DNA of 39,254 bases from an uncultured Sphingobacteriales bacterium (GTDB taxonomy: Bacteria > Bacteroidota > Bacteroidia > Chitinophagales > Chitinophagaceae), in NCBI GenBank assembly GCA_946479435.1, contig CAMLFX010000020.1, positions 1-39,254 on the forward strand, read 5' to 3'. The notes under the pieces are model-generated. The model was not told where the DNA came from and searched no databases. It saw only the letters and a list, made by a program, of their open reading frames with translations. Positions 37,484-39,254 of the stretch are shown here, piece by piece (position 1 is the first letter of the stretch; every line of letters starts with the position of its first letter). The translations under genes and the position numbers were made by a program.

Positions 37484-38692
37484 CTATTTATAAGCATAAT
37501 CGCTTAGGTAAGCATAATTATCAGTAAGGGTACCATCCTCGCAAATAGTTGCACGCTTTATAATGTCTGAGTTTCCGGCTAACAACTCCGAAAGAATAAA
37601 TTTCTCGAAATGCGAGCCGAAGTATTGGGATGCATCGCGCGGAAGCTCATTGGGTAAATTGTCAACCGCCATTACATCAATTATATTGCGGTCGTTTTGG
37701 AAAGGGGCTTCCTTTTCACCTGTTTTCCTGTTGACGCCATAAACAGGGTTGGCAATAGTAGAGGCTCCAAGGTTGATAGGAACTGACCCATCTATATCGC
37801 AGGTAATATCAGATATAACACTTGGGCGCCAATCATTACGTTGTATGTCCTGTTTTTCAAAAAGCCTGGCAATATTAGTATCCCAATATATTCCGTTCAT
37901 TAAAATATCGGTTTGAGGGATATAGGTAGAGAACAGGCATTTATAAGCTTGTGGATTAGCATGAAAATCATCTCGTGAAAAGGTATCATTATCCTTACGC
38001 GCGTATAGTACGTTTCCTTTCAGATGTGTGTAAACAGGGTAATCGTACTGGTGGGTAAGAAAATCTTCAGGTTCTACTGATTCAATATCAAAATGAGTCA
38101 TTACCTCTAAAATGCCAGCAGCTACTTTACCTGAGCCTGTCATTACGATCTTTATATTAGGCAATTTCACCTGTTCGTACGACATGCGTAATGATTCGTA
38201 ATCTTTTACTTCATGTGCTGTGGGTAAACTAAACAGATCAAATTTCTTACCATAAGTTAGCAAGCCATTGTGTGCACCAACAATACCGGCGTATAAGCCA
38301 AAGCCTAATATACGCTGCTCATCGCTATGTGTGAGGCATTCGTAGTCAATCATCCTGATGCGCTTTTCAATAAGTGTCTGCATCAAATGTTGGTTGTAGG
38401 GCTGTTTCTTTTTTGTGTGCGAAAAGAAGAAGTAGGTTTTACCTTCTATTAAGCGGTCAGCAGGTACTTCTTTTATACCTATTAATACGTTACAGCTACT
38501 AAGATCTTCCGTCATCTCTATTCCCTCTGACAGATAGTCTGCATTGCTATAACACCTGTCGGGCGAAGGTTCCACACTGATCTTTACATTGGGATAGGCC
38601 TGCATGATATGTGCGCATTGCTTAGGCGTAAGCGCAACGCGTGTATCGGGAGGGTTCTTTCGTTCGCGTATCAGGCCAATATGTAGCATCAA
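37484..38692 (-). CDS. Saccharopine/alanine-dehydrogenase-like oxidoreductase
   Basis: A 402-residue protein of the AlaDH/PNT-saccharopine dehydrogenase class. The N-terminal domain (IGLIRERKNPPDTRVALTP) contains the conserved Arg and Lys pattern of the lysine-ketoglutarate reductase / saccharopine dehydrogenase (lysine-forming) group. It continues with FFFSHTKKKQ and IDYECLTH. A Rossmann segment VMTGSGKVAAG is near 183-193, and the CDIDGSVPINLGASTIANPVYG block matches eukaryotic LYS1 and AASS. It probably works in lysine metabolism, either saccharopine formation or breakdown, but direction cannot be deduced. A partner saccharopine reductase is not adjacent. The second Met, one codon in, is an alternative start. 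Confidence 0.85.
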   Translation of the reverse strand: MMLHIGLIRERKNPPDTRVALTPKQCAHIMQAYPNVKISVEPSPDRCYSNADYLSEGIEMTEDLSSCNVLIGIKEVPADRLIEGKTYFFFSHTKKKQPYNQHLMQTLIEKRIRMIDYECLTHSDEQRILGFGLYAGIVGAHNGLLTYGKKFDLFSLPTAHEVKDYESLRMSYEQVKLPNIKIVMTGSGKVAAGILEVMTHFDIESVEPEDFLTHQYDYPVYTHLKGNVLYARKDNDTFSRDDFHANPQAYKCLFSTYIPQTDILMNGIYWDTNIARLFEKQDIQRNDWRPSVISDITCDIDGSVPINLGASTIANPVYGVNRKTGEKEAPFQNDRNIIDVMAVDNLPNELPRDASQYFGSHFEKFILSELLAGNSDIIKRATICEDGTLTDNYAYLSDYAYK

Positions 38693-38788
38693 AGTATATT
38701 TTGAGCCGTAAAGATAACGCTAGCATTTCTTCTTTGGATATTATGAAAACTATACATGATTGAGTGAGCATATTTTTAGGAAATACTA

Positions 38789-38819
38789 TTGTTCATTAAG
38801 CAAAGAATAAATACATTTG
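38789..38819 (+). promoter_or_regulatory. Promoter of tRNA-Leu
   Basis: TTG at 38789-38791, a 20-bp spacer and TACATTTG at 38812-38819. Both match the Bacteroidota consensus. Transcription should start near 38826, leaving a 5' leader of about 35 nt. Confidence 0.65.
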
Positions 38820-38832
38820 CATCCCCTCCCAA

Positions 38833-38851
38833 AAAGAGCTGAATGCTCTTT
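38833..38851. promoter_or_regulatory. Hairpin in the tRNA-Leu 5' leader
   Basis: 7-bp stem AAAGAGC/GCTCTTT (38833-38839 and 38845-38851) with a 5-nt loop, 9 bases before the mature tRNA. On the opposite strand it is followed by five Ts, so it could also stop antisense transcripts. Confidence 0.5.
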
Positions 38852-38860
38852 AAAGGTTTT

Positions 38861-38944
38861 GCCCAGATGGCGGAATTGGTAGACGCGCTAGACTCAAAAT
38901 CTGGTTTTCGCAAGGGAGTGCAGGTTCGATTCCTGTTCTGGGCA
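38861..38944 (+). tRNA. tRNA-Leu (anticodon CAA)
   Basis: The 7-bp acceptor stem GCCCAGA/TCTGGGC pairs perfectly (38861-38867 and 38937-38943), with A at the discriminator position. The D arm reads TGGCGGAATTGGTAGACGC. The anticodon stem CTAGA/TCTGG encloses the loop CTCAAAA, giving anticodon CAA for codon UUG. A long variable arm (typical of Leu) and T-arm GGTTCGATTCC follow. CCA is not encoded. It has its own promoter and terminator, and the 3' end is a typical integration target. Confidence 0.95.
38920..38944 (+). other. Candidate attachment site (tRNA 3' end)
   Basis: The T arm and acceptor end of tRNA-Leu are the usual core of integrase att sites, and an integrase-like gene begins 250 bases downstream. 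The matching direct repeat would lie beyond this window, so this is inference from position. Confidence 0.3.
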
Positions 38945-38968
38945 CTTTGACCATTGTCAAAACGATAC

Positions 38969-39002
38969 AAAGCCTGTAAATTCAACATTTGCAGGCTTTT
39001 TT
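38969..39002 (+). terminator. Intrinsic terminator of tRNA-Leu
   Basis: 13-bp stem with one G-U pair (AAAGCCTGTAAAT at 38969-38981, ATTTGCAGGCTTT at 38987-38999), 5-nt loop, and six Ts running through the end. Confidence 0.85.
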
Positions 39003-39054
39003 CATTAGTTCAAATCATCAAAATTTACAGAATTACTTAAAATCTGCTAGCGTC

Positions 39055-39094
39055 ATTCGTGGCACTTTTCTTTTTTGAGAAAAGACGCACGAAT
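39055..39094. repeat. 40-bp interrupted inverted repeat
   Basis: Outer arms ATTCGTG (39055-39061) and CACGAAT (39088-39094), inner arms CTTTTCT (39065-39071) and AGAAAAG (39078-39084), with a 3-base mismatch bubble between them and a 6-nt loop. It lies between the tRNA terminator and the integrase-like gene and could be an arm-type recombinase site. Confidence 0.6.
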
Positions 39095-39120
39095 TATTAT
39101 CTAAATGATTGATAGTTAAC

Positions 39121-39139
39121 ATGTAAGTCACACTTACAT
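39121..39139. repeat. 8-bp inverted repeat upstream of the integrase-like gene
   Basis: ATGTAAGT (39121-39128) and ACTTACAT (39132-39139) with a 3-nt spacer CAC. The symmetry and the position 54 bases before the ATG suggest an operator or a recombinase arm site. Confidence 0.5.
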
Positions 39140-39192
39140 CTTGTTTAAGAACTTGAGTATTTCCAATTTTATTAACCTTAAAGATTAATGTT

Positions 39193-39254
39193 ATGTTGGA
39201 AAAAAGCTTAGGGCTGCTATTCTTCTTGAAGCAACCCAAAAATCAGTGTGATGA
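39193..39254 (+). CDS. Start of a probable tyrosine-type site-specific integrase (truncated by window end)
   Basis: Only 20 codons and 2 bases are visible: MLEKSLGLLFFLKQPKN, then QCD. This resembles the first strand of the arm DNA-binding domain at the N-terminus of Bacteroidota tyrosine recombinases of mobile elements, which typically read like MLEKxxGLLFFLKKPKN. The position, about 250 bases after a tRNA 3' end and pointing away from it, fits an integrase at the end of an integrated element. The identification rests on a short stretch, so other genes are possible. No Shine-Dalgarno or clear promoter was seen; inverted repeats lie upstream. Confidence 0.55.
   Translation, partial: MLEKSLGLLFFLKQPKNQCD

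Follow-up and report, generated by a model that had tools for sequence, protein, structure and literature searches.

The available parts of two papers describe the systems that come closest to the locus reported here. The mobilizable element NBU1 of Bacteroides carries the tyrosine integrase IntN1 and integrates at the 3' end of a tRNA-Leu gene (PMC8138268), and so it shares with our locus a host from the Bacteroidota, the type of integrase and the target. Compared by description, the integrase of NBU1 differs in having the first catalytic arginine, which the relatives of our integrase stub lack (PMC8138268). Integrases of the IntCTnDOT subgroup are built from arm-binding, core-binding and catalytic domains, and in CTnDOT-type integrases the first catalytic arginine is likewise absent from its usual place (PMC8138268). 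Both features recur in the integrases studied here, although these target the 3' ends of tRNA and tmRNA genes and the likeness is one of domains and residues. The 10K genomic island of Riemerella anatipestifer also resides in a member of the Bacteroidota, adjoins a tRNA gene and encodes an intN1_C-like integrase, which together with its att site was shown to integrate and excise (PMC6764341). It differs from our locus in its tRNA-Arg target, its 53-bp repeat and its size of about 10 kb, and the available text on this island describes no inverted repeat between the tRNA and int (PMC6764341).

Our analysis concerns a stretch of 39,254 nucleotides (the window), which ends 309 bases beyond a tRNA-Leu(CAA) gene. 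With a probability of roughly 0.9, the last bases of the window belong to the left end of a mobile element integrated at the 3' end of this tRNA in a Chitinophagaceae-type host, that is, a genomic island, most probably of the integrative and mobilizable type, with a tyrosine integrase and a 248-bp left-end module. The first-pass annotation had proposed such a left edge, and the integrase N-terminus, its spacing from the tRNA, related left ends behind different tRNAs and the variability of the locus all support it. The boundary is well supported but ordinary, of a kind already known.

The features of the locus are collected in the table. The host is Chitinophagaceae-like: the flanking dehydrogenase is 81% identical to its copy in a Flavipsychrobacter MAG, the closest locus. 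Using this dehydrogenase as the query, we collected 80 related loci, of which 59 showed tRNA-Leu(CAA); some of the remaining 21 lie on short contigs or end at the dehydrogenase gene. From the end of the dehydrogenase gene to the end of the window (38693-39254) there is no open reading frame of at least 100 amino acids, and in an Rfam scan of 38700-39254 the tRNA was the sole model above its gathering score, with five others far below theirs. We take the 3' end of tRNA-Leu(CAA) as the putative attL core. The interval between the dehydrogenase gene and the tRNA (38693-38860 in the window) is about 400 bp longer in three related loci (L001, L003 and L012), where it seems to hold a small gene that we presume to be J-domain-like; this extra gene is absent from the window and from L010 and L011.

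Table. Annotated features around tRNA-Leu(CAA), in window coordinates.
Feature	Position	Strand	Basis and remarks
AlaDh_PNT_N-family dehydrogenase gene	37484..38692	-	Pfam PF05222; conserved chromosomal flank
tRNA-Leu(CAA)	38861..38945	+	ARAGORN and Rfam tRNA (E 3.4e-12); probable integration target
Terminator-like hairpin AAAGCCTGTAAA...TTTGCAGGCTTTTTT	38969..39002	+	Read directly; by eye, hairpins of this sort also follow the tRNA in related left ends
Direct copy X1 (GCGTC), before the inverted repeat	39050..39054	+	Read directly
Imperfect inverted repeat ATTCGTGGCACTTTTC...GAAAAGACGCACGAAT (ATTCGTG...CACGAAT)	39055..39094	.	Candidate integrase arm-type site pair
Second inverted repeat ATGTAAGT-CAC-ACTTACAT	39121..39139	.	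Read directly; overlaps ACATCTTG (39136-39143)
Integrase gene, first 20 codons	39193..39254	+	ATG start; frame open at window end

An integrase-like gene had been noted about 250 bases past tRNA-Leu(CAA) and reading away from it; its ATG lies 248 bases past the tRNA in that orientation, and the stub matches the N-termini of integrases. Its 20 complete codons translate to MLEKSLGLLFFLKQPKNQCD. Of 195 genomes searched with this peptide, 29 matched at E<=10; many of these matches are weak or lie in short frames. Taking the lowest E-value of each genome, the top three (1.7e-5, 2.3e-5 and 6.3e-5) belong to alignments that start at residue 1 with 83-89% identity and lie in frames of 387, 445 and 52 amino acids. 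Matches from residue 1 at 78-89% identity were present in seven genomes, and the identity to the first 18 residues of tyrosine integrases of about 400 amino acids reached 89%. On this sequence evidence, the resemblance to integrase N-termini exceeds chance, and the 20 codons are the start of an integrase gene of the arm-binding tyrosine type. The stub alone matched no Pfam model, found no match in plasmids by tblastn and had no clear N-terminal match among the 30 loci of a plain Arm-DNA-bind_5 search, while a degenerate 26-base pattern had 0 matches in viral contigs. The stub is also absent from the stretches fetched for the 80 host-locus relatives, two of which (L018 and L079) carry integrases of another type at the locus. 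In the open-licence literature, we found no paper for an integrase peptide, and the Pfam name gave only unrelated work.

The two full-length relatives that were scanned (L116 and L118) contain the domains Arm-DNA-bind_5 (PF17293), Phage_int_SAM_5 (PF13102) and Phage_integrase (PF00589). In an alignment of 15 integrases, the HxxR motif, the second histidine and the tyrosine are kept in all 14 complete sequences; the incomplete row, L111, is cut by its own contig end. The first arginine is missing from its usual place in the aligned relatives. The Arg-His-Arg-Tyr set proposed as a check for this gene is therefore present in the relatives apart from its first member, and the window's own copy presumably continues into such a catalytic part. 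Among solved structures, the L118 integrase had nine distant matches, the best being XerA at 3.1e-9.

The relatives are linked to tRNA and tmRNA genes. Our stub set consisted of 34 matches, 30 loci from the 195-genome search and four from host relatives; in 19, the frame stays open for 340 amino acids or more, and the other 15 are shorter (cut, decayed or spurious). In 17 of the 19 long-frame matches, the integrase is preceded by a tRNA or tmRNA gene on its own strand at no more than 800 bp and reads away from it, at a spacing of 239-259 bp in 15 cases and of 300 and 414 bp in the other two. The 248 bp of the window fall inside this narrow range, which counts against a chance frame. A second set, obtained with the L112 integrase as the query in 348 genomes, covers 49 of the 74 places listed, four of which repeat places of the first set. 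Here, a tRNA or tmRNA was found at 39 of 49 places with a median spacing of about 256 bp, start codons being estimated from the match. The neighbours were tRNAs for Ser (17), Pro (7), Asp (5), Lys (3) and Asn, Met and Arg (1 each), and tmRNA (4). Among the integrase relatives examined, including the 49-place set, none had tRNA-Leu(CAA) as its neighbour, and this target is therefore attested by the window only. Moreover, a plain search for Arm-DNA-bind_5 integrases in 29 host relatives (28 matched) gave an ARAGORN tRNA in only 6 of 30 loci, so that the link to tRNAs is not general for integrases with this domain but a property of a subgroup.

Two of the integrase loci have duplicated tRNA sequences. 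In L126 (genome G035), the 414 bp between tRNA-Ser and the integrase start contain a second copy resembling the tRNA-Ser 3' end, with a partial repeat motif before it, which looks like the remnant of a tandem insertion. In L118 (genome G087), the integrase has two copies each of tRNA-Leu(TAA) and tRNA-Gly(GCC) next to it.

The DNA between the tRNA and the integrase is itself related to other left ends. Positions 38969-39245 of the window share 72% identity (E 7.3e-34) with the left end of an element in genome G094, which lies behind tRNA-Arg(CCG). This similarity begins about 24 bases past the tRNA and continues into the integrase behind a different tRNA, indicating that the segment moves together with the integrase rather than with the tRNA. 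A resembling left end was found in G087 behind tRNA-Leu(TAA). The two left ends agree with the window in the order of hairpin and repeats, as judged by eye, and in their spacing (247 and 249 bp versus 248 bp), but differ in the tRNA that they adjoin, which in neither case is tRNA-Leu(CAA). Overall, left-end DNA matches were obtained in 25 of 396 genomes, those besides the G094 match being mostly short and many of them lying over the hairpin. A second, partial match in G094, the genome with the closest left end, covers 121 query bases at 74% identity (C23:372836-372956). In a distant-mode comparison of 38861-39254 with plasmids, 220 records matched, none of them covering 80% of the query; the best 20 of the 220 covered 22-23% of it, around the tRNA.

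These comparisons bear on two other accounts of the window's end. According to one, the frame is a chance opening beside an ordinary tRNA: it comprises only 20 codons, has no Pfam match as a stub and follows an inverted repeat that lies within the range of shuffled sequences. Matches from residue 1 in seven genomes, the left-end DNA shared with another tRNA-linked integrase and the spacing typical of the relatives leave this account with hardly any credit. According to the other, the window ends in a decayed relic, in which the left end and the integrase start remain, the gene breaks off and the element is immobile. The copy could be dead, given that 15 of the 34 stub matches have frames shorter than 340 amino acids, and L113, L115 and L117 keep a clear N-terminus in frames of only 38-87 amino acids. 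The 20 codons of the window are intact, however, their best matches lie in long frames (L111 and L112), and almost the entire left end can be aligned with that of L111; on balance, we consider a relic unlikely.

Two inverted repeats had been described between the tRNA and the integrase gene. Inspection by eye of 38946-39192 confirmed that such repeats are present but gave three: the terminator-like hairpin, the ATTCGTG...CACGAAT pair and the shorter repeat downstream of it. Since the window's left end aligns with those of L111 and L118, the repeats may be read here, too, as arm-type sites of the integrase. Across 61 left ends, the best inverted repeat scores at least 10 in 25, compared with 4 of 244 shuffled sequences, and a trio X...X...X', in which a 5-mer occurs in two direct copies 11-12 bp apart and then inverted, is present in 27 versus 1.25 expected from shuffles; the shuffles were simple (single bases for the inverted-repeat test, blocks of two for the trio test), and both tests included three similar pairs (L161/L162, L165/L166 and L181/L182). 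The window's own best inverted repeat scores 7, a value reached by 87 of the 244 shuffled left ends, and its ATTCGTG...CACGAAT pair taken alone is unremarkable. It also stands outside the 27 trio-bearing left ends, as its middle copy, GGCAC, differs. The repeat at 39121-39139 together with ACATCTTG, which was found in 14 of the 61 left ends (the window included), is a possible promoter or operator of int.

Anchoring on ATTCG/CGAAT was feasible for 17 of 60 left ends, or 16 after removal of one near-duplicate; in four of the 17, the two anchors lie 47-49 apart and may have been misplaced. In these 16 left ends, the inner arms agree to 0.84 within and to 0.48 between elements, a difference reached in 0 of 2000 permutations. 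The direct copy (X1 = X2) gave 0.42 within versus 0.37 between and was not significant (228 of 2000 permutations). A fourth X copy, seen by eye near the int start codon, was discarded as a candidate: an end's own X was present there in 4 of 12 ends and the X of other elements in 39 of 132.

The agreement of the arms would be explained equally well by RNA pairing, and the repeat at 39055-39094 could thus be a hairpin in the int leader rather than a DNA site for the integrase. A hairpin would have no need of the direct copy found 11-12 bp upstream in 27 of 61 left ends, although this copy was not significant in the anchored test; we regard the hairpin as possible but not the favoured explanation. 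Reading the repeats as DNA sites, one may speculate that tRNA- and tmRNA-targeting elements of the Bacteroidota have a common left-end module of about 250 bp (a terminator, then ATTCGG-X...X'-CCGAAT, often with a direct X located one turn before it). Within this module, X would diverge between elements while the arms stay matched within each, and would serve the arm domain of the integrase as a specificity code, keeping co-resident elements apart. This proposal is tentative and probably too far-reaching, its odds being reduced because the window's repeat lies within the shuffles and its middle copy differs. If true, the code would be readable from sequence and would pair integrases with attachment sites; the left-end repeats, if upheld, could moreover mark such islands at contig ends that lack the integrase.

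The far ends of related elements were searched over 40 kb in nine integrase relatives, a tenth (G108) having a sequence that ends after 2.8 kb. The distant direct repeat of the tRNA 3' end that the first-pass annotation had suggested looking for was present in three of the nine, at 26-39 kb: G087 has an att repeat of 24 nt with one mismatch at 39.6 kb of the stretch (element about 39 kb), G187 one of 18 nt at 26.0 kb (about 26 kb) and G037 one of 22 nt at 32.6 kb (about 32 kb). The other six gave no clear att repeat over the 40 kb searched with a query set without tmRNA, and two of them (G036 and G018) adjoin tmRNA. By comparison with the three delimited elements, an attR is presumed for the copy in the window as well. 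The G187 and G037 elements each encode a MobA/VirD2-type relaxase. In G202, where the search located no far end, matches to a relaxase and a coupling protein lie near the integrase. These relaxases point to integrative and mobilizable elements, and the island in the window may be mobilized in the same manner. A prophage would be an alternative to a mobilizable or conjugative element, and phage records do contain distantly related integrases: the L118 integrase matches 118 of 50,697 such records, 11 of them over at least 80% of its length. All 118 matches are below 60% identity, however, as are those in 100 of 72,556 plasmid records, so that neither collection holds a close relative of the L118 integrase. 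Together with the relaxases in two of the delimited elements, this makes a prophage improbable.

The variability of the locus in host relatives was assessed in 33 that have at least 6 kb on either side. On the tRNA side, the mean number of other loci with a homologue is 0.11 per ORF (165 ORFs, 17 with any), versus 3.53 on the dehydrogenase side (184 ORFs, 96 with any). Synteny past the tRNA is thus far from conserved among relatives, and the locus past tRNA-Leu(CAA) is a hotspot that turns over fast. Copies reaching the 3' end of tRNA-Leu(CAA) lie downstream of it in four of the 55 relatives examined: 36 nt in L012 and 48 nt in L031, both at 4.5 kb, 41 nt in tandem in L034, and 16 nt at 7.1 kb in L079, where the first gene is an integrase.

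Among the first genes past the tRNA are some for GmrSD, PAPS-reductase, TIR and PD-(D/E)XK proteins; others encode an aminotransferase and a protein without a match. Scanned with PADLOC (E<=1e-10), the 133 tRNA-side proteins of at least 130 amino acids matched 303 defence models, versus 11 models for 133 of the 155 proteins of at least 130 amino acids on the other side; owing to redundancy among the models, 18 of which matched a single protein, these figures show a contrast rather than the number of systems. The tRNA-side proteins fall into 90 Pfam families, many of them ordinary; GmrSD_N is present in 4 of the 133. Past tRNA-Leu(CAA), single relatives carry GmrSD, DndC-like, Argonaute, ThsB, TIR and restriction genes beside ordinary enzymes, and cargo systems to the right of the window are a comparative prediction for this copy. 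Within the open-licence literature, we found no title on such defence islands or on tRNA-Leu islands.

Left ends of other families are also present behind tRNA-Leu(CAA). In their first ~115 nt past the tRNA, L004-L007, L012, L017, L020, L023, L026, L031, L038, L046, L048 and L075 have a terminator-like hairpin followed by a direct repeat with an 11-12-bp period, such as GGTACAACATAGGTACAACAT or TTGCACTA-TTGCACTA; an integrase match in the fetched stretch was obtained for L020 only. Direct repeats of 7 or more were seen in 23 of 43 host-relative ends, which belong to other element types, compared with 12% of control windows. Furthermore, seven of the 55 relatives examined contain 14-29 nt from the 5' half of the tRNA-Leu gene again in inverted orientation, 158-212 nt past the tRNA in L007, L017, L026, L028, L046 and L051 and at about 750 nt in L064. 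Most of these left ends also carry direct repeats that resemble TTGCACTA and recur every 12 bp. The window gave matches of 7-8 nt only in this comparison.

In the mechanism that we propose for the island at tRNA-Leu(CAA), a tyrosine integrase bearing an arm-binding domain at its N-terminus would recombine the attP core with the chromosomal tRNA. As the attP core would copy the tRNA 3' end, the tRNA would be rebuilt intact and the element would begin directly behind it. The 248-bp module would provide a terminator for the tRNA transcript, repeats probably bound by the arm domain of the integrase, and the promoter of int.

Overall, the finding marks where core chromosome gives way to mobile DNA at this locus. 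It also predicts where exchangeable genes sit in this clade, namely in the stretch behind tRNA-Leu(CAA).
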